DNA of 64,000 nucleotides from Bacteroidaceae bacterium (GTDB taxonomy: Bacteria > Bacteroidota > Bacteroidia > Bacteroidales > Bacteroidaceae), in assembly GCA_017451645.1 (NCBI GenBank), contig JAFTNZ010000024.1, positions 51,452 to 115,451 of the forward strand, written 5' to 3'. The notes below the pieces were generated by a model. That model was given only the letters and a program-made list of their open reading frames with translations, ran no database searches and was not told the DNA's origin. Shown piece by piece: positions 8,435-63,872 of the stretch (its first letter is position 1; each line of letters begins with the position of its first letter). Made by a program: the position numbers and the translations under genes.

Positions 8435-8616
8435 CTCATTTTTGGTGAGTGCACCAAGAAAAAAAGCAATAAAGTGCATTAATAGGTGGAAAGCCAACGA
8501 GTTGGATGCATGAAGATCTCCTGTCCTTCCCCCGTCCCAAAAAGTCGGTACACAAAATCTCTCATGCCCGGGGATAATCTCTTTCAGTCGGTCGGTTTAA
8601 TGGAAATGCCCCTTCT

Positions 8617-8710
8617 ATTCTATAATCTGAATCACGGATTATATAATCTGAATCACGGAATATATAATCTGAAGCTTGGAATATATAATCTGTGATTCAG
8701 ATTATAGAAT
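8617..8710. repeat. 21-bp periodic palindromic repeat array, copy 1
   Basis: Four units of exactly 21 bp begin at 8621, 8642, 8663 and 8684, each starting TATAATCTG. The outer ends form a perfect 19-bp inverted repeat (8617-8635 with 8692-8710, arm ATTCTATAATCTGAATCAC). The third unit holds AAGCTT at its centre. The same layout recurs at 39999-40166. Both copies lie between divergently transcribed genes. Nothing here codes for protein. Confidence 0.85.
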
Positions 8711-8893
8711 AATGACGTATTTTGTTGATTTTGGAGCGGTCTCTTTGTGAATTGTAGCAGGTTTCTTTATTGATGGAAGACAGACAAAGAGAAAATTGGC
8801 AAGGAAAAGGGCATCGCCATGCCATTATCAGGAAAACAGCCTTTCCCTGTAGGTTTTTTATCGGAAAATATGCCTTGCATCAAAATAAAGCAT

Positions 8894-23323: not shown

Positions 23324-23421
23324 TTAGGCACAGATTACACGGTTTTCTGTGCTTTGTCGTATAAAAATAAAGAAGAAAAGAACCCGCATGGTATCGCGTA
23401 ATCCGTGTAATCCGTGCCTAA
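23324..23421. repeat. TTAGGCAC palindromic element, copy 1 (between gpsA and pgi)
   Basis: TTAGGCACAGATTACACGG (23324-23342) and CCGTGTAATCCGTGCCTAA (23403-23421) are inverted repeats identical at 18 of 19 positions, 60 bp apart. A related element lies on the other side of pgi. Confidence 0.8.
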
Positions 23422-39998: not shown

Positions 39999-40166
39999 GC
40001 TTCATATCGTACAATCACGGCTTTATATCTTATAGAACAAGCTTCATGTTTTACGATGAAAGCTTTATATTCCATAATCTGAATCACGGATTATATAATC
40101 CAAATCACAGATTATATAATCCAAGCTTCAGATTATATAATCCGTGATTCAGATTATAGAATAGAA
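39999..40166. repeat. 21-bp periodic palindromic repeat array, copy 2
   Basis: Eight units of exactly 21 bp begin at 39999, 40020, 40041, 40062, 40083, 40104, 40125 and 40146; most open with GCTTYA or ATCAC and the last five carry ATTATATAATC-type cores. Inside it, 40074-40100 and 40131-40157 form a perfect 27-bp inverted repeat (arm begins ATAATCTGAATCACGG). The array shares both units and central AAGCTT with the copy at 8617-8710. Confidence 0.85.
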
Positions 40167-40450
40167 GGCTTCTGAACAGAGATGTTTTTGTCGCTTTGCA
40201 GCTATTATTCGGCACTTCCTTCATTTTCTTTCTTGGTATTTTTATTGTTCTTCTTTTATCTTCTATTTTTTCTTACACTCTTTTGGTGCTTCAGTCAAAG
40301 AGGCATGTGCTGTGCGGAGCTCCGTTGCGCCGGTGAATCCGATGGGAATGCCGCTTGCCAAAGCTGTCTGTCGTTTTCGTGTCACAAAAATAGGGAAGTA
40401 TGCAAGAAATGGATGCTTAAATTCTGTTAATTCGTAATTTGGGGATGAAA

Positions 40451-43077: not shown

Positions 43078-44139
43078 TCAGGCTTTACGGATGTACTCCA
43101 CCAGCCATCCGCCAATCTCTTTGGTGCCATACTTCTCTCCACCTTCCACTTGTATCTCTGGTGTGCGCACATTGGCATCGAGCGAAGCGTCCACGGCCTT
43201 GCGGATGAGGGCACCCTCTTCCTTCAGATTGAAGTATTCGAAGAGCATGGCTACGGAGAGCACTTGTGCCAACGGATTGGCAATGTTCAGCCCTTTTGCT
43301 TGTGGCCAACTTCCATGAATAGGCTCGAACACAGGTGTACTTTCGCCTGTTGATGCAGAAGGGAGAAGGCCCATTGAGCCGCTGATGACTGAGCCTTCGT
43401 CGGTGAGGATGTCACCGAAAGTGTTTTCTGTCACCATCACGTCAAAGAAGGTCGGCTCCTGAATCATACGCATGGCGGCATTATCGACATACATATAGTC
43501 GGTTGTCACTTCGGGGTATTGCGGAGCCATCTCTTGTGCAATCTTGCGCCACAGACGCGACGAGGCGAGCACATTGGCCTTATCGACTACGGTGAGGTGC
43601 TTGCGGCGCTTCATGGCGTACTCGAATCCGACCTTCAGAATACGTTCAATCTCCGGACGGGTATAGTAATTGGTGTCGTAAGCCTTTTCGTCATCCTGAT
43701 ACTTCTCGCCGAAGTACATGCCACCCGTCAGTTCGCGGATGCAGATGAAGTCGGCATTCTCAACCAGCTCGGCGCGTAGAGGAGACTTGTGGATAAGGCA
43801 CTTGAATGTCTGTACGGGGCGGATGTTGGCAAAGAGCCCTAATTTCTTACGCATGGCCAACAGCCCCTGTTCAGGACGCACTTTGGCCGTCGGGTCATTA
43901 TCGAACTTCGGGTCGCCTACGGCTGAGAAGAGCACTGCATCAGCATTCTTACATATCTGAAATGTCTCTTCGGGGAAGGGGTCGCCCACTTCGTCAATGG
44001 CATGTGCACCACAAAGAGCGTATTCGTAGTTCACTTGGTGTCCGAACTTCTCACAAACGGCGGTCATTACATCCACACCTACGGCGGATATTTCGGGGCC
44101 GATACCGTCACCGGCCAACACTGCAATTTTGAAATCCAT
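43078..44139 (-). CDS. leuB: 3-isopropylmalate dehydrogenase
   Basis: Oxidative decarboxylation of 3-isopropylmalate in leucine synthesis. 353 residues. N-terminal [21 protein letters not shown], substrate loop [22 protein letters not shown], conserved [15 protein letters not shown], the NAD/Mg region [16 protein letters not shown] and [21 protein letters not shown], and [22 protein letters not shown]. Last gene of the operon leuA-DUF559-leuC-leuD-cimA-leuB. Its start is native: the flanking palindrome ends 10 bp upstream and does not enter the frame. Confidence 0.96.
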
Positions 44140-44148
44140 AAAATTAGA

Positions 44149-44308
44149 GGACCCTCCCCCTCGCCCCTCCCAAGGGAGGGGAGTAGGATGTATGGGTCAT
44201 GTTTTTATTTGTTATACATCTGTTATTAATCACTTTTGCTTTAAGAGCTCAGATTTGATTGTCTGACTATCTACTCCCCTCCCTTGTGGAGGGGCAAGGG
44301 GGAGGGTC
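44149..44308. repeat. C-rich palindrome pair, cimA-like/leuB junction
   Basis: Left copy 44149-44190 starts GGACCCTCCCCCTCGCCCC; right copy 44271-44308 is its inverse, ending AAGGGGGAGGGTC. The pair can form a ~38-bp hairpin in the transcript. The right copy encodes the last ~13 residues and the stop of the cimA-like gene. Confidence 0.88.
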
Positions 44309-45910
44309 TTTTGTGGGTATAGTCTCTTCTATCAGATTCAGCATCTTCATCGTGGCCTTGATGGCTGCTTCCGTCTGGTCGGCATCAAGCCCTCGGGTGC
44401 GGATGACTTTACCGTCGAAACTCCAGGTGATGACCGTCTGCACGAAGGCATCGGTGCGTCCTCCGGGCGGGATGGTGACGGCATAGTTGGTCAGCATGGG
44501 GAAGGGACGGTTCAGTGTCACTTTATAGATTTTACGCAATGCCCTTACAAAGGCATCATATTGTCCGTCACCGCTGGAGTTCTCTTCGTACTCCTGCCCG
44601 TTGATTTCTACCTTCACCGTAGCCATGGGTTTGAGTCCGTATGCCAGATTGACGAAGTAGCTCTTCAGCCGTACGCGGTCTTCCTGAATGTCGTGCTTCA
44701 GTACGTCGCTTATGATATAAGGCAAGTCCTCTTGCGTCACCAGTTCCTTCTTGTCGCCCAATTCGATGATGCGGTTGGTCACCTTTTTCATTGCCTCTTC
44801 GCTCAGTTCAAGGCCCAGTTCCTCCAGATTCTTTCGGATGTTAGCCTTTCCGCTGGCTTTGCCGAGGGCATATTCGCGTTTGCGTCCGAAGCGTTCGGGT
44901 AGGAGGTCGTTGCAATAGAGGTTGTCCTTGTTATCGCCGTCGGCATGTACACCCGCCACTTGGGTGAAGACACTTTCGCCTACGATGGGCTTGTTTGTGG
45001 GGATGCTTACACCACTGTACGACTCCACGATGCGGCTCACTTCGTTCAGCTTGCTCTCATCGATGGATGTCTGGGCATTGAAGTGATCCTTCAGAATCGC
45101 TTGTACGCTGGCCAATGGAGCATTACCGCATCGCTCACCAAGGCCATTCACCGAGGCATGTATGCCTTGACAACCGCTGAGCACGGCGGCCAACACGTTG
45201 CTGATGGCCAGATCGTAGTCGTTGTGCGCATGGAAGTCGAAGTGCAGGGTGGGGTATCGCTTCTTCATCTTACGCATGAATTCAATGACTTGCAAGGGGT
45301 TGAGTACCCCCAACGTGTCAGGTAACATGAATCGGCGAATGGGCAAGTCCTTCAGTGCATCCATCAGTTGGAAGACGTATTCGGGCGAACTCTTCATGCC
45401 GTTGCTCCAATCCTCCAGATAAAGATTGACGGTGATATCCATTGCTTCAGCCTTCTCCACTGTGCGGATGATGTCGGCAATATGTTCCTCGGGAGTCTTC
45501 TTCAACTGATGTTGGCAATGGCGGAGCGAACCTTTTGTCAATAAATTTATCACTCGTCCACCCGCTTGGTGAATCCATTCCAGCGAGGTCCCACCGTCAA
45601 CAAAACCCAATACCTCCACGCGGTCAATCATGCCGCGCCGTGCCGCCCAGTCGCATATCATTCGGACAGCCTCCAACTCTCCGTCTGACACACGGGCCGA
45701 TGCCACCTCTATACGGTCAACCTTCACCTCTTCCAGCAGCAGGCGGGCAATCATCAGTTTCTCGTGTGGTACAAAGCTCACACCGCTTGTTTGCTCCCCG
45801 TCGCGCAGGGTGGTGTCCATAATTTCGATATAGCGTCCGGCAGACCCTCCCCTCTGCCCCTCCCAAGGGAGGGGAGTGGAATGCCTCGCTCTGTAACCGT
45901 TTTCTATCAT
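44267..45910 (-). CDS. Citramalate / isopropylmalate synthase homologue (CimA-like), both ends built from repeats
   Basis: 547 residues. HMGL-like aldolase core from [18 protein letters not shown] (metal Asp and Arg), HFDFHAHNDYDLAI (HxH), GLGERCGNAPLASV; linker with VGESVFTQVAGVHADGD; C-terminal LeuA allosteric domain ending near LNLIEET. It condenses acetyl-CoA with an oxoacid: pyruvate if citramalate synthase, 2-oxoisovalerate if a second LeuA. Since leuA is present in the same operon, CimA feeding isoleucine synthesis is favoured. The first ~24 residues (with [15 protein letters not shown]) and last ~13 (DPPPCPSTREGSR) are translated palindrome. An internal ATG just at the core Met would drop the conserved residues before it. 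Confidence 0.85.
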   Translation of the reverse strand: MIENGYRARHSTPLPWEGQRGGSAGRYIEIMDTTLRDGEQTSGVSFVPHEKLMIARLLLEEVKVDRIEVASARVSDGELEAVRMICDWAARRGMIDRVEVLGFVDGGTSLEWIHQAGGRVINLLTKGSLRHCQHQLKKTPEEHIADIIRTVEKAEAMDITVNLYLEDWSNGMKSSPEYVFQLMDALKDLPIRRFMLPDTLGVLNPLQVIEFMRKMKKRYPTLHFDFHAHNDYDLAISNVLAAVLSGCQGIHASVNGLGERCGNAPLASVQAILKDHFNAQTSIDESKLNEVSRIVESYSGVSIPTNKPIVGESVFTQVAGVHADGDNKDNLYCNDLLPERFGRKREYALGKASGKANIRKNLEELGLELSEEAMKKVTNRIIELGDKKELVTQEDLPYIISDVLKHDIQEDRVRLKSYFVNLAYGLKPMATVKVEINGQEYEENSSGDGQYDAFVRALRKIYKVTLNRPFPMLTNYAVTIPPGGRTDAFVQTVITWSFDGKVIRTRGLDADQTEAAIKATMKMLNLIEETIPTKDPPPCPSTREGSR

Positions 45911-45959
45911 GTTTCGGAGTATTTACTTCCCTCCCTTGGGAGGGGTTTGGGGGAAGGTC
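45843..45959. repeat. C-rich palindrome pair, leuD/cimA-like junction
   Basis: Left copy 45843-45883, right copy 45921-45959, inverted, 37-bp spacer. The left copy is read in frame as the N-terminus of the cimA-like protein; the right copy provides the last residues (TFPQTPPKGGK) and the stop of leuD. Confidence 0.88.
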
Positions 45960-46570
45960 CCCTCTTTTTCGTATTCTTCTATCTTCTCTTTATTCTCCAA
46001 CAGGAAATCAATGTCGTCCAATGCATTCATCAGACAATATTTCTTATAACCATTGATTTCGAATGTTTCACTATGGCCTGTGGCAAGGTTGGTGACGGTC
46101 TGGTTGGGCACGTCCACTTTTACTTCTGCCTGCGGGTTGGCTGATACGGTGTCGAACAGCTCTTGTTGGAATTCGCGGCTCACGATGACAGGCAATACAA
46201 AGCAGTTGAGCAGGTTATTGCGGTGGATGTCGGCAAACGAACTGCTGATGACCACACGCACACCATAACCGGCGATAGCCCAAGCGGCATGTTCACGACT
46301 GGAGCCTGAACCCCAGTTTTGTCCGCCGATGATAATTTCGTGTACACCTTGGCGCGGTGTTTCGCTGTACTCGGGGCGGTTCATCACAAAGTCCGCTACG
46401 GGCTTTCCGTCTGCATTATAGCGTAGGTCATGCATGAAGGCATCACCGAAAAATTTCGGGTCGCGTGTGGTACTGGCCAGATAGCGGGCCGGTATGATGA
46501 GGTCTGTATTACAGTTGTCAATCTGAATGGGTATGCAGGTTGACTGTATGATGTCAAATTTCTGTTTCAT
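45923..46570 (-). CDS. leuD: 3-isopropylmalate dehydratase small subunit
   Basis: Small subunit of the Fe-S isomerase that turns 2- into 3-isopropylmalate with LeuC. 215 residues. Characteristic segments: IDNCNTDLIIPARYL at the N-terminus, IIIGGQNWGSGSSREHAAWAI (the SSREHA motif), VVISSSFADIHRNNLLNCFVLP. The native protein should end near residue 200 (ENKEKIEEYEKE); the extra tail TFPQTPPKGGK is encoded by the adjacent palindrome, whose insertion replaced the stop. The tail is probably harmless. Start codon is native. Confidence 0.95.
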   Translation of the reverse strand: MKQKFDIIQSTCIPIQIDNCNTDLIIPARYLASTTRDPKFFGDAFMHDLRYNADGKPVADFVMNRPEYSETPRQGVHEIIIGGQNWGSGSSREHAAWAIAGYGVRVVISSSFADIHRNNLLNCFVLPVIVSREFQQELFDTVSANPQAEVKVDVPNQTVTNLATGHSETFEINGYKKYCLMNALDDIDFLLENKEKIEEYEKEGTFPQTPPKGGK

Positions 46571-46579
46571 AATGATAAT

Positions 46580-46711
46580 GGACCCTCCCCCTTACCCCTC
46601 CCAAGGGAGGGGAGTAAATACTTAGGGCTGCAGGTCTGTTTGTATATTGGTTTATATTAATTAGGTGACACATTTCACTCCCCTCCCTTGGGAGGGGTAA
46701 GGGGGAGGGTC
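46580..46711. repeat. C-rich palindrome pair, leuC/leuD junction
   Basis: Left copy 46580-46620, right copy 46671-46711, inverted, 50-bp spacer. The right copy encodes [10 protein letters not shown] and the stop of leuC. Confidence 0.88.
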
Positions 46712-48168
46712 CCCCTCGGATCAGTCACTACTCCCGTTATCGCACTTGCCGCCACTACAAGCGGAGAGGCAAGGATAGTGCGTGCACCGGGCCCCTGCCG
46801 ACCTACAAAGTTACGGTTACTGGTAGAGATGGAGAGTTTGCCTGTAGGCACTTTGTCGGGATTCATGGCCAAGCACGATGAACATGAGGGCAGGCGCAAT
46901 TCAAAGCCTGCTTCCTCTAATATCTTGTCAATGCCTTCGTCGATAATCTGTTGGCGTACGAGCCATGAGCCGGGCACGAGCCAAGCCACCACATTGGGAG
47001 CCTTCTTCTTACCCTTTACTACAGAAGCGAAGGCGCGGAAATCCTCAATGCGTCCGTTGGTGCAAGCACCGAGGAAGCAATAATCGACGGGAGTACCTTC
47101 AAGTTTTTGCCCAGGCTTGAATTGCATATAATCAAGCATGGCAAGGAATTGGTCTTTGTCGGCTTCGGCCACTTCATCCAATGTAGGGATGCACTCGTCA
47201 ATGGCAATACCTGCACCGGGGTTAGTACCGTAGGTGATGCGCGGTGCAATGTCCTCGGCACGATAGGTAACTTCCTTGTCGAACACTGCGTCGGGGTCGG
47301 AGTAGAGCTTCTTCCACTCCTCCACGGCTTTGTCCCAGGCCTCGCCTTTGGGGGCATATTCGCGTCCCTTGAGGTATTCGAAGGTTATTTCATCGGGAGC
47401 GATGAGGCCGGCACGACTACCCATCTCGATGCTGAGGTTCGAGAGGGTAAGGCGTCCCTCCATACTCATGTTGCGCACGGTGGAGCCTGCATACTCTACG
47501 GCATAACCTGTTGCACCTGAAGTGGTCATCTGTGCCATGATGTAGAGTGCCACATCTTTGGCGGTAGTGCCCTCGGGCAGTGCGCCTTCGATATTGATGC
47601 GCATCGTCTTGGGTTTGCTTTGCAGGATGGTTTGCGAAGCCAATACCTGAGCCACCTCGCTGGTGCCTATACCCATGGCAATGGCGCCCACGGCTCCGTG
47701 TGTAGAGGTATGTGAATCACCGCACACGATGGTCATACCCGGCAACGAAAGTGCTTTTTCGGGGCCTACCACATGGATGATGCCATTGTCCTTGCTTCCC
47801 ATAGCAAAGTGTCGGATGCCAAACTCGGTGCAATTCTTTGCCAATGTCTCCACCTGCTTGCGTCCTACGGGATCGTCGATGCGCTCCTGTTGGTCGCTCG
47901 GTGTGTTATGGTCGGGCATAGCCACTACCTGTTCGGGACGGAACACACGTATGTTCTTGTCTCTCAATGTGTCGAATGCCTGTGGTGTTGTCACCTCGTG
48001 GCAATAGAGGCGGTCAATGTAAAGTTGGGTAGGGCCGTCCTCCACCTTCTGCACTACGTGTGCGTCCCATATTTTATCAAATAAAGTAGACCCACTGGAC
48101 CCTCCCCCTTGCCCCTCCCAAGGGAGGGGAGTGGATACATTTTTCATTCCTATTTCTCCGTTATTCAT
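46675..48168 (-). CDS. leuC: 3-isopropylmalate dehydratase large subunit, start supplied by a repeat unit
   Basis: Large, Fe-S-bearing subunit of isopropylmalate isomerase. 497 residues against ~465 usual. Conserved parts: [13 protein letters not shown] near residue 28, [25 protein letters not shown], the cluster Cys in [18 protein letters not shown] and [15 protein letters not shown]. No ATG, GTG or TTG exists in frame between the palindrome and TLFDKIW, so the start must be upstream, at 48168 (overlapping the DUF559 stop by 8 bp) or 48147 (MKNVSTPL). The first ~26 residues, including [15 protein letters not shown], are translated repeat. The C-terminus also ends in repeat code. Enzyme core is intact. 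Confidence 0.93.
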
Positions 48169-48587
48169 AACTTTCTATTTCTTTTGTAATTGTTTCTAAT
48201 GTTTCTTCTATGTTGTATAATACCTCTTCGTTTGTAAAACGGATAACCCGATAACCCATATCATTCAAAGTTGATTCACGAATTTCATCGCTTTCTGCCT
48301 GTTTGCGTTCTGCATGATAGGCGCCATCAACTTCAATGACAAGATTTATGGTTGGCAACAGAAAATCGACGATGTAATCGCCAATAATGTGTTGACGAAG
48401 GACCTTTACCCCTAATTGTTCGGCCTTGATGGATTGCCAAAGTACATGCTCTGCAAGAGTCTGGTTCTTCCGATTCTCCAAAGCGAAAGCTTTCAGCAAT
48501 TTATATCTGTCAGGTGATGCAGTCTTATAATCCATAATTGTTTGTTACATTCTACTCCCCTCCCTTGGGAGGGGCAGGGGGAGGGTC
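48097..48587 (-). mobile_element. Palindrome-bracketed DUF559 unit inside the leu operon
   Basis: Left palindrome 48097-48140 and inverted right palindrome 48548-48587 enclose a single gene for a small DUF559 nuclease-like protein. The other inverted pairs in the window have only 13-80 bp in the same position. Immediately outside the right copy, GGTCCGCTGGTTG is repeated twice (48584-48610). The unit splits leuA from leuC and provides the leuC start. Confidence 0.6.
48161..48535 (-). CDS. DUF559 (Vsr-like endonuclease fold) protein
   Basis: 124 residues, cytoplasmic, no signal. DUF559 proteins share the PD-(D/E)xK/Vsr fold. The expected core is visible: [21 protein letters not shown] (helix that starts the fold), then [22 protein letters not shown] with the Asp and E-x-D acidic residues, followed by [22 protein letters not shown]. 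All catalytic-type positions are kept, so nicking or cleavage is plausible, though activity for this family is poorly known. It has no evident role in leucine synthesis. It sits between inverted palindromes and its stop overlaps the leuC start, so leuC translation is coupled to it. Confidence 0.8.
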
Positions 48588-48615
48588 CGCTGGTTGGGTC
48601 CGCTGGTTGGATCTC

Positions 48616-50109
48616 CTATTTGAACTTGTTTATACAATCAATATACGCTTCCACCGAGGCAGCGATAATGTCTGTGTTGGCACCGAATCCGTAGTAGATA
48701 TGTCCGTCGTATTCCACCTGCATATGCACTTTTCCCATGTCGTCCGATCCTTTACTGATGGCTTGGATGGTGAACTCCTTCAAAATCATGTGGCGGTCAA
48801 TAATCTTTTTCAGTGCCTTGATGGCTGCATCCACCGGGCCGTTTCCACTGGCGCAGGCTTCGAACTTCTCGCCACTGATGCTGATGCCGAGGCTGGCTAC
48901 CGACTGGACACCCACACCGCTGGTCACTTGCAGGAATTCCAACTTGATGCGGTGGTTTTGTGTGCGGTCGGCACCAGCAAGGAGCATGATGTCGTCATCG
49001 TTGATATCCTTCTTCTTGTCGGCCAGTTTGAGGAATTCCTCATACACCTTGTCCAGCTTCTCTTGCTCGAGTTCGATGCCGAGAGCGTGCAGGCGGTTCT
49101 TCAGGGCGGCACGTCCCGAGCGGGCGGTCAGTACGATGCTGTTGTCATCGATGCCCACATCCTTCGGGTCTATGATTTCATACGTCTGTACGTTTTTCAG
49201 TACACCGTCCTGATGGATGCCGCTTGAGTGGGCAAAAGCATTGCGTCCGACGATGGCTTTGTTTGGTTGCACAGGCATGTTCATCAGTGAACTGACCATG
49301 CGGCTTGTAGGGTAAATCTTCTGGGTGTTGATGTTGGTCTCGATATCAATGTCTTTATGACACTTGATAATCATAGCCACCTCTTCAAGACTGGTGTTTC
49401 CGGCCCGTTCGCCGATACCGTTGATGGTCACTTCCACTTGGCGGGCACCGTTCAGAATACCGCTCATGGTGTTGGCTGTGGCCATACCCAAGTCGTTATG
49501 GCAATGGGTAGAGATGATTGCCTTGTGGATGCCATCCACATGCTCCATCAGGTACTTTATCTTTGCACCATATTCAGCTGGCAGGCAATAACCCGTCGTG
49601 TCGGGGATGTTCACCACTGTAGCACCTGCTTTGATGACGGCTTCGATGACACGCGACAGGTATTCATTGTCCGTTCGTCCCGCATCTTCGGCATAAAACT
49701 CCACGTCTCCTACATAACGGCGGGCATACTTTACCGCAGCTACAGCACGTTCGATAATTTCTTCGCGATTTGAGTTGAATTTGTATTTGATGTGCGAGTC
49801 ACTTGTGCCTATACCTGTATGGATACGCTTGTGCTTGGCATACTTCAGGGCTTCTGCAGCCACATCAATGTCCTTTTCTACGGCACGTGTCAGGGCACAA
49901 ATGGTGGGCCATGTCACCGCTTTTGAAATCTCGATGACCGAATTGAAGTCTCCAGGGCTTGACACAGGGAATCCTGCTTCAATGACATCCACACCCAACA
50001 ACTCCAGTTGTTTGGCCACTTGAATCTTTTCTACCGTGTTCAATTGGCATCCGGGCACCTGCTCTCCATCGCGCAGTGTGGTGTCGAAAATGAATAATCT
50101 GTCGCTCAT
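48616..50109 (-). CDS. leuA: 2-isopropylmalate synthase
   Basis: First committed step of leucine synthesis: acetyl-CoA plus 2-oxoisovalerate. 497 residues. Core starts [20 protein letters not shown]; HxH metal motif in [55 protein letters not shown] marks the linker; the C-terminal LeuA dimer domain (from ~residue 385, [15 protein letters not shown]) binds leucine for feedback. N- and C-termini are native, with no repeat code. First structural gene of the operon, 213 bp after the leader peptide start, downstream of the attenuator. Confidence 0.95.
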
Positions 50110-50164
50110 AGTTCTTTTCCTTGTGATATATGTGATTTATTTTTTGCTTTGCTTTTATTAAAAC

Positions 50165-50198
50165 GAAAAAACCTTTCGCACTGGGAAGTGAGAAAGGC
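50165..50198 (-). terminator. Attenuator terminator of the leu operon
   Basis: Minus-strand stem CCTTTC-T-CACT / AGTG-C-GAAAGG followed by TTTTTT, 55 bp before the leuA ATG. Its 5' arm and loop (50182-50192, CTCACTTCCCA) are perfectly complementary to TGGGAAGTGAG in the leader ORF. Confidence 0.88.
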
Positions 50199-50281
50199 TT
50201 TTCTTTACTGTTCTTGTATTTTGTACCTATCGTCAGGTTCAACATACCGCATAGCACTCACTTCCCACCAGACTTCCCAGT
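50182..50281 (-). promoter_or_regulatory. Antiterminator pairing region of the leu attenuator
   Basis: TGGGAAGTGAG at 50257-50267 pairs over 11 bp with 50182-50192. A second segment, ACTGGGAAGT at 50272-50281, pairs over 10 bp with ACTTCCCAGT at 50180-50189. Both lie after the Leu/Ile codon run of the leader ORF, so a ribosome stalled there would leave them free to block the terminator. Confidence 0.8.
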
Positions 50282-50325
50282 AGAATAATAATGCTTAGTA
50301 GGTTGATGTTGAATGTCTGCTTCAT
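50239..50325 (-). CDS. Leu operon leader peptide (28 aa)
   Basis: ATG at 50325-50323, TGA at 50241-50239. The peptide begins MKQTFNINLLSIIILL and continues GSLVGSECYAVC: 13 of 28 residues are Leu, Ile or Val, with CTA CTA AGC ATT ATT ATT CTA CTG in a row. This is the signature of a branched-chain amino-acid attenuator. It lies between a good promoter and a terminator/antiterminator pair, directly before leuA. It may also look like a short signal peptide, but the context supports a regulatory role. Confidence 0.85.
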   Translation of the reverse strand: MKQTFNINLLSIIILLGSLVGSECYAVC

Positions 50326-50358
50326 TGTCTTTTTTCTTCTTTTTTGTTTTTAACGGTG

Positions 50359-50366
50359 CAAAGATA
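50359..50366 (-). promoter_or_regulatory. Promoter (-7) of the leu operon
   Basis: Minus-strand TATCTTTG, 33 bp before the leader ATG. Just upstream of the -33 region lies an inverted repeat AAAATGTCAG / CTGACATTTT (50392-50427). Confidence 0.72.
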
Positions 50367-50391
50367 GAAATATTTTCTCGAATGAAAAAGA

Positions 50392-50427
50392 AAAATGTCA
50401 GTTTTTTCAATAAAAAGCTGACATTTT
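50392..50427. repeat. Inverted repeat upstream of the leu promoter
   Basis: AAAATGTCAG (50392-50401) and CTGACATTTT (50418-50427), perfect 10-bp arms; the spacer TTTTTTCAATAAAAAG extends the pairing. Either an operator for the leu promoter or a hairpin; it faces the DUF4738 gene on the other side. Confidence 0.55.
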
Positions 50428-50575
50428 ATAAGATTTTTATCCCGGGTGGTTGATTTTGTCTTGCTCTTTTGGCTTTGTTTTTATGGCAGACACAGATTTG
50501 AAGGCTATTTTGTTGGCAGTTTCATCTTTTTTGTGTTTCTTTGCAGAAACGAAATCTTATATCTTTTTTACATAG

Positions 50576-60747: not shown

Positions 60748-60838
60748 GACCCCATCCCAGCCTTCCCCAAGGGGAAGGAGTGAAATGCTTTGCAGAACAA
60801 TTCACTCCCCTCTCTTGGGAGGGGTAAGGGGGAGGGTC
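60748..60838. repeat. C-rich palindrome pair, gpmI/DUF3109 junction
   Basis: Left copy 60748-60787 (diverged: GACCCCATCCCAGCCTTCCC) and right copy 60801-60838 (ending AAGGGGGAGGGTC), inverted, with only 13 bp between. Shortest spacer of the family in this window. Confidence 0.82.
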
Positions 60839-60857
60839 CGTGGGGCCGTCTTTTATT

Positions 60858-63658: not shown

Positions 63659-63872
63659 AGTCTATCTCCTAGTAGGAGACGGACTGTTTGCCATTCATCT
63701 GATTAACAGAGGATTATCATTTTCCGCAAGGAGATTTTACATAGAAAAAAGGCCAAAATGCCTCAAAAAGGACTTTTTCATTCCTAATTTTTTTAATCGA
63801 AAAGTGCTAATAATCAGAAAAAAACTGTACCTTTGCGCCATAAACAGTCCGTCTCCTACTAGGAGATCGACT
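63659..63872. repeat. Invertible promoter segment with 31-bp inverted repeats
   Basis: Arms at 63659-63689 and 63842-63872 are inverted and match at 30 of 31 positions; each holds a near-perfect dyad TCTCCTA-G/C-TAGGAGA. The 152 bp between carry TACCTTTG (63828-63835) on the plus strand and no gene. The rest of the 399-bp gap (63489-63658) shows nothing else. Confidence 0.88.
63828..63835 (+). promoter_or_regulatory. Invertible promoter, now facing the UpxY-like gene
   Basis: TACCTTTG matches TAnnTTTG; no good -33 TTTG. It lies 6 bp inside the right inverted repeat and would drive the gene at 63888 (ON). Inversion would point it at the recombinase gene's 3' end. Confidence 0.75.

Follow-up and report, generated by a model that had tools for sequence, protein, structure and literature searches.

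A DUF559 nuclease gene enclosed by inverted palindromes: a probable nuclease-carrying mobile element with short non-autonomous derivatives

Among the systems described so far, REPIN/RAYT (REPtron) comes closest to the locus reported here. As described in two reports (PMC3116915, PMC3733652), its repeat unit consists of two short palindromes in inverted orientation, separated by a short spacer; such units form hairpins and are dispersed as non-autonomous copies, and the system includes one gene that is flanked by its cognate palindromes and covaries with the repeats. In this study, we analyzed a stretch of 64,000 nucleotides from a Bacteroidaceae bacterium (hereafter the window), as well as its relatives, and found the same features around a different gene. 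First, this gene encodes a PF04480 nuclease of the PD-(D/E)XK/Vsr-like type, in contrast with the HUH/Y1 tyrosine transposase (PF01797) of REPIN/RAYT. Second, the palindromes have C-rich outer heads (GGACCC/AGACCC or similar) without the GTAG (or CGTC) end tag; AGTAG was seen only in part of the arms, on their inner side. Third, DUF559 units occur in frame inside genes. The DUF559 elements are therefore REPIN/RAYT-like in logic, without the defining transposase and tag of that system, and both the pair architecture and the cognate flanking agree with the first-pass annotation of this DNA, which had proposed a REP/RAYT-like logic with a nuclease instead.

Vsr-fold homing endonucleases are another related group. 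The profile of the DUF559 protein matched PDB 3r3p ('Mobile intron protein'; E 8e-8), which we take to be the Vsr-fold homing endonuclease I-Bth0305I, a homing endonuclease was the second match in PADLOC (1.6e-6), and both occupied and empty sites exist. In contrast with 3r3p, no intron or intein was recognized here by eye, and the unit is bounded by palindromes and accompanied by dispersed non-autonomous copies. The closest solved structure by sequence was PDB 3hrl (E 2e-24), which is listed only as 'endonuclease-like' and presumably comes from Neisseria gonorrhoeae. Finally, Rickettsia palindromic elements share the in-frame translation of palindromic repeats in unrelated protein genes, whereas no nuclease partner is mentioned for them in the description consulted (PMC10969869) and an apparent autonomous copy is found here. 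No report of a link between DUF559 and palindromes was found in the open-access literature searched, a coverage outside which most subscription journals fall.

The nuclease unit of the window lies between leuA and leuC, two leucine-synthesis genes. Its gene (48161-48535, minus strand) encodes a 124-aa Vsr-like nuclease that matched DUF559 (PF04480) with an E-value of 2e-31 (108.5 bits against a cut-off of 20.6), and was the sole PF04480 match in the window genome (G000; 2.5 Mb assembled, completeness 73%). Two C-rich palindromes enclose it with their heads outward: a left arm on the plus strand (48097-48138), which starts at 48097 with GGACCCTCCCCCTTGCCCCTCCCAAGGGAGGGGAGTG and has GGACCC as its head, and a right arm on the minus strand (48547-48588; 48547-48589 according to the repeat tool), an inverted copy of the left that finishes with CTCCCCTCCCTTGGGAGGGGCAGGGGGAGGGTCC, its last base being 48588. 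The upstream neighbor is leuA (48616-50109, minus strand), a member of the 2-isopropylmalate synthase family, and the leuC reading frame spans 46675-48168 on the same strand. Frames around the unit matched 2-isopropylmalate synthase as well as the large and small subunits of 3-isopropylmalate dehydratase, and a further neighboring frame matched citramalate synthase below the cut-off of that family. With at most one mismatch, GACCCTCCCCC was found nine times in the window against 0.92 expected, a number that none of 100 shuffles attained; thus, the claimed enclosure of a DUF559 gene by inverted palindromes is real and far above chance. The core CCCTCCCAAGGGAGGG with at most three mismatches gave 18 matches against 0.54 expected, counted on both strands so that one palindrome may score twice, and a strict arm pattern occurred 19 times in the window genome (reversed control: 0).

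The first-pass annotation had listed five well-kept and two worn palindrome sites in the window, with a gene at the DUF559 site only. The dispersed pairs were confirmed, but six sites were found, a tally that may miss further worn pairs: four well-kept pairs (that of the DUF559 unit included), a fifth pair whose left arm is worn and a sixth, worn pair. The other five pairs were all gene-free, as claimed. The well-kept ones among them are 44149-44191/44266-44309, 45842-45883/45918-45960 and, at the leuC-leuD junction, 46580-46622/46670-46712; the pair with a worn left arm (60748-60787) has a well-kept right arm (60797-60839), and the worn pair lies at approximately 34859-34894/34944-34980, left arms being on the plus strand and right arms on the minus strand throughout. 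Two gene-free pairs were folded, and each formed one hairpin over its full length (z = -8.5 and -6.2). Folded singly, the two arms that bound the nuclease gene were similar to shuffles or little better (z = 0.1 and -1.1), and single arms were therefore rejected as stable hairpins. A known RNA family for the repeats was rejected as well, since the region 43500-50500 contained no Rfam match at the gathering score.

To score bracketing in relatives, we took 300-base flanks on both sides of each gene and compared the upstream flank with the reverse-complemented downstream flank, a score of 27 being a pass (shuffle maximum 26 in up to 800 shuffles of a first run with 250-base flanks). After loci with short flanks had been dropped, 78 of 80 close relatives, 60 of 60 family loci and 29 of 30 phylum loci were testable. 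Inverted palindromes bracketed 77 of the 78 DUF559 genes at related loci in named assemblies (9 of 238 other ORFs there), 50 of 60 in the family sample (0 of 34) and 20 of 29 in the phylum sample (0 of 16), counts that are not independent because all locus sets hold relatives, some of them repeated; at least five of the 60 family loci had gene DNA identical to that of one of the 80 named loci. The enrichment of DUF559 genes at palindromes, on which the earlier proposal had been staked, thus held in each set. The family sample consisted of the best match from each of 56 genomes of the same bacterial family plus four extra matches from genome G130, five further family genomes with a strong DUF559 match being represented by loci of the genus set, and the phylum sample of the 30 top-scoring matches, one per genome, out of 296 genomes. 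No clear inverted pair was present at 10 of 60 family loci and 9 of 29 phylum loci. In the phylum sample the arms were often direct copies: the direct score was at least 36 at 18 of 29 loci, and the inverted score exceeded the direct one at only 9 of 29.

Outside Bacteroidota, 17 of 43 plasmid records were taken, and 8 of the 17 loci scored above their own shuffle maximum. These came from Pseudanabaena, Picosynechococcus, Deinococcus (two loci, one of them passing narrowly with 41 against 37), Sphingomonas (two loci), Qipengyuania and Sphingobium. Two Synechocystis loci appeared degenerate by eye and fell below the pass, and the plasmid-record loci of E. coli, Streptomyces, Thioalkalivibrio, Shinella, Azospirillum, Sinorhizobium and Methylobacterium did not exceed the shuffle maximum. 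Close distinct pairs in the analyzed loci were oriented head-outward in 17 cases, head-inward in none and in the same direction in four (25, 0 and 4 with repeats counted). The 80 close-relative loci showed 46 distinct neighbor contexts for DUF559. Three relatives were found on viral contigs in the close-relative scan, and phage records yielded 11 partial matches, none reaching 80% coverage.

Palindrome sequences differed widely from locus to locus, and they did so together with the nuclease. Comparing the left arm of one locus with the right arm of another in 112 of 178 loci (arm score of at least 40, arm of 28-70 nt, distinct protein), we obtained a Mantel correlation of 0.70 between nuclease similarity and arm similarity, which none of 1000 permutations reached (maximum 0.23) and which is inflated by the shared descent of linked DNA, so that the covariation partly reflects joint inheritance. 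The own right arm ranked first for 51 of 112 loci and among the top five for 91 of 112, the former number being low because relatives have similar arms. Paralogues within one genome are a better test of cognate pairing than the correlation over all loci. There were nine paralogue groups, one of which had no usable member, and in all eight genomes with at least two usable paralogues the left arm best matched its own right arm. The four usable nucleases of G130 scored 0.86-1.0 with their own partner arm and 0.17-0.51 with those of the others; the seven further genomes, each with two or three usable paralogues, agreed, one of them narrowly (0.66 versus 0.59). Dispersed copies in G130 were numerous for three of five paralogue arm types and few for the other two, as judged from the 40 candidates scored out of 169 at first look.

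Copy number pointed in the same direction. Among 201 family genomes, 61 had a strong DUF559 match and nine more a weak PF04480 match, the latter being treated as lacking the gene. Strong DUF559 was present in 31 of the 38 genomes in which the window repeat variant occurs three or more times versus 30 of the 163 others (Fisher p = 2.9e-13), and the gene and the repeat were also linked within genera (Mantel-Haenszel odds ratio 8.5; 0 of 20000 permutations reached the observed joint count), so that repeat copy number is related to the gene, as the proposal demanded. The seven repeat-bearing genomes without strong DUF559 (G003, G007, G076, G079, G099, G121 and G151; one of them 98% complete) are what would be expected of relics but also of independence. 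Among the 30 strong-DUF559 genomes with fewer than three copies of the variant, other inverted arms scored at least 27 in 23 and at least 36 in 15, and seven showed none at a score of 27.

Enrichment, covariation and copy number together support the claim that the window holds one nuclease-carrying copy and short non-autonomous copies. We consider it probable, at odds of roughly three in four, that a DUF559 gene and its cognate inverted palindromes form a nuclease-carrying mobile element of which the other pairs are short non-autonomous derivatives.

The comparison of occupied and empty sites bears on how such a unit spreads; it was made among different species, whose empty sites have diverged at leuA-leuC, leuC-leuD and the SpoIID-like position alike. 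This divergence obscures any target duplication as well as the precise limits of the insertions, and no insertion polymorphism at strain level was seen. The empty leu-operon sites that had been called for were found: nine relatives (G001, G002, G005, G006, G007, G008, G011, G012 and G014) have only a short spacer between leuA and leuC. G010 and G013 have longer, unrelated spacers, and no leuC match was found in G003. The window's nuclease unit is present at this position in G000 and G004, and a different DUF559 gene with different palindromes in G009. In these three genomes leuC has lost its native start, and its frame instead opens at a start codon inside the unit and continues across the palindrome into the LeuC sequence; in the window, this adds a linker of 19 residues read through 48097-48138, the leuC family profiles beginning only at residues 26-27 of the ORF, and unit-free relatives use the native ATG. 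The leuC-leuD junction carries three types of palindrome pair (G000/G004, G006/G008 and G009). In one genus, a SpoIID-like gene, matched in 16 of 19 genomes, has at one position nuclease type A (G141, G167, G497 and G503), type B (G499), a nuclease-free palindrome remnant (G065) or other inserts. The reuse of one junction or loop by unrelated units suggests a target preference or merely tolerant places. It is also what would be seen if the nuclease were only homing, that is, if DUF559 copied its unit into relatives that lack it, always at the same site, while the palindromes were incidental hairpins and the dispersed pairs dead relics. Different units do recolonize the same places and the profile is similar to that of 3r3p; however, 46 contexts in 80 loci and the many dispersed copies indicate spread to new places, and the arms covary with the nuclease, which makes this reading unlikely.

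The leuC-leuD junction and the SpoIID-like position also host palindrome-pair families without a visible nuclease, so that hot spots or another mover are possible. Accordingly, DUF559 might be a passenger that was captured between two palindromes, the pairs having been spread by a different enzyme, for example a RAYT, or through errors of replication. Besides the nuclease-less families at these junctions and loops, one member of the genus (G001) has a Y1 transposase with inverted flanks of its own (locus L113; score 88), and a mover could have been missed in the incomplete window genome. On the other side, each nuclease type has its own arm type, same-genome paralogues included, and other genes are seldom bracketed (9 of 238). 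A RAYT as hidden partner was rejected: no RAYT-type/Y1 transposase (PF01797) was detected in the window genome, an absence that is weak evidence at 73% completeness, and five Y1 loci of the genus lacked any C-rich arms. We therefore regard a passenger role as improbable, and a nuclease that moves its own unit remains the preferred explanation.

In the protein itself, seven residues (D57, E68, D70, H74, Q79, D83 and R86) were invariant across 51 sequences and mark a candidate catalytic region. The dN/dS ratio had a median of 0.10 and a maximum of 0.23 in 12 pairs limited to a synonymous difference of 0.1-0.6, and was 0.07 for the window gene against locus L029; seven of 80 relatives had a stop codon inside the match. 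No recombinase family in Pfam or NCBIfam matched the gene, whereas an insertion sequence with MITEs would have a recombinase of the DDE, serine or tyrosine type. The best PADLOC match was a methyl-directed restriction enzyme model (5e-8), several units lie within restriction-modification genes and DUF559 is a relative of Vsr, all of which would fit a Vsr-type repair or restriction enzyme acting on methylation-related sites, with the palindromes as unrelated terminators. In Caulobacter, a role as nuclease in mismatch repair has been proposed for VsrA, a DUF559 protein (PMC12907096); according to that report, a DNA-damage response of cells without a cytosine methyltransferase requires the DUF559 protein, and a cognate C5-methyltransferase may be unlinked. 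That requirement is compatible with a DUF559 nuclease activity in vivo. However, a crude scan of 3 kb on either side found C5-methyltransferase motifs in no ORF at any of the 80 loci, and repair does not predict the bracketing, the covariation, the changing contexts or the positions in LeuRS and MetH; a repair or restriction role as the whole explanation is thus very improbable.

Those positions are part of a wider pattern, in which units lie in frame within LeuRS, HsdR, MetH and SpoIID-like proteins and their palindromes are translated. At 12 of 30 phylum loci and 13 of 60 family loci, DUF559 was part of an open frame 300 or more codons long, and Pfam confirmed all 10 fusions submitted, whose hosts were leucyl-tRNA synthetase, HsdR, methionine synthase, HsdM, a SpoIID-domain protein, LeuC, LeuB, two polysaccharide-synthesis proteins with epimerase domains and one dehydratase/epimerase-type protein. 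The interrupted domain was matched as two stretches in the SpoIID protein and in one polysaccharide protein, and in G193 (L200) one open frame spans DUF559 and LeuC. Translated in six frames, the arms contained 39% Pro plus Gly. Selection for open frames in the palindromes found no support: 457 of 672 frames of the left arms were open versus 474 (s.d. 11.6) after shuffling, and since left arms are no more open than shuffles, the openness is a consequence of composition. That the pairs at operon junctions are selected terminators or mRNA processing sites, with the nuclease gene there by chance, is hardly credible in spite of their strong folding and of the four well-kept window sites flanking leuA, leuC, leuD and the citramalate-synthase-like gene, because they occur in frame inside proteins and their presence or absence is species-specific.

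For the mobile-element reading, we propose the following course of events. The nuclease would recognize its own palindromes, probably as a hairpin, cruciform or dyad, and would nick or break the palindrome or the target; host repair or recombination might then finish the copying to a new place, in a way similar to homing endonucleases and presumably without the covalent tyrosine intermediate of RAYTs. PD-(D/E)XK nucleases hydrolyze DNA, which favors cut-and-repair over tyrosine strand transfer. Non-autonomous derivatives would consist of the two ends of the element with a few dozen bases between them. Units would survive where the frame downstream of or around them stays open; their C/G-rich ends read chiefly as Pro, Gly, Leu, Arg and Ser. 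A broader proposal is that these elements represent an undescribed class of bacterial mobile DNA in several phyla, namely single-gene PD-(D/E)XK elements that recognize their own palindromic ends, mobilize themselves and two-ended miniatures by cut-and-repair, have ends readable as linkers and carry the nuclease domain inside essential host proteins. For this full set of properties we see the arguments as evenly balanced, and there is a fair chance that DUF559 elements merit a class of their own.

In our view, no mover has been assigned to many of the C-rich palindromic repeats of Bacteroidota or to some of those found in Cyanobacteria, Deinococcus and sphingomonads. DUF559 is a widespread family whose function is still listed as unknown in Pfam, and tying the C-rich repeats to it gives a testable role to each. 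DUF559 elements would add a nuclease-based counterpart of REPIN/RAYT and, if the proposal is true, would account for the unusual Pro/Gly-rich extensions, and for the nuclease domains, of enzymes such as leucyl-tRNA synthetase; the units also provide naturally occurring cases in which a domain has been inserted into an essential protein.

Several additional observations were made on neighboring loci and other repeats. The RAYT-like Y1 transposase at L113, with its strong inverted flanks, indicates that both kinds of system occur in one genus. In two Deinococcus species (L222 and L233), DUF559 was found at differing junctions beside the same hydroxyphenylacetate genes. At the leuC-leuD junction, which is occupied by C-rich pairs in relatives, G002 (L117) has an inverted pair of yet another type (CACAGATGACGCAGAT-like, by eye). 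AT-rich in-frame inserts (KLKIENSKLKV...FSTFNSQ-like) were present at L270, L273 and L277 at the SpoIID-like position of DUF559 units, hinting at a different translatable pair-type element. Within the window, AT-rich inverted pairs (TATTCTATAATCTGAATCACGGATTAT...) at 8616-8711 and 40060-40171 represent a second repeat family, whose spacings are too short to enclose a gene, and the inverted pair TTAGGCACAGATTACACGG/CCGTGTAATCCGTGCCTAA at 23324-23421 a third pair-type repeat. Finally, inverted arms of 31 nt that are 97% complementary, with 152 bases between them, lie at 63659-63872 and are perhaps a further pair-type element.
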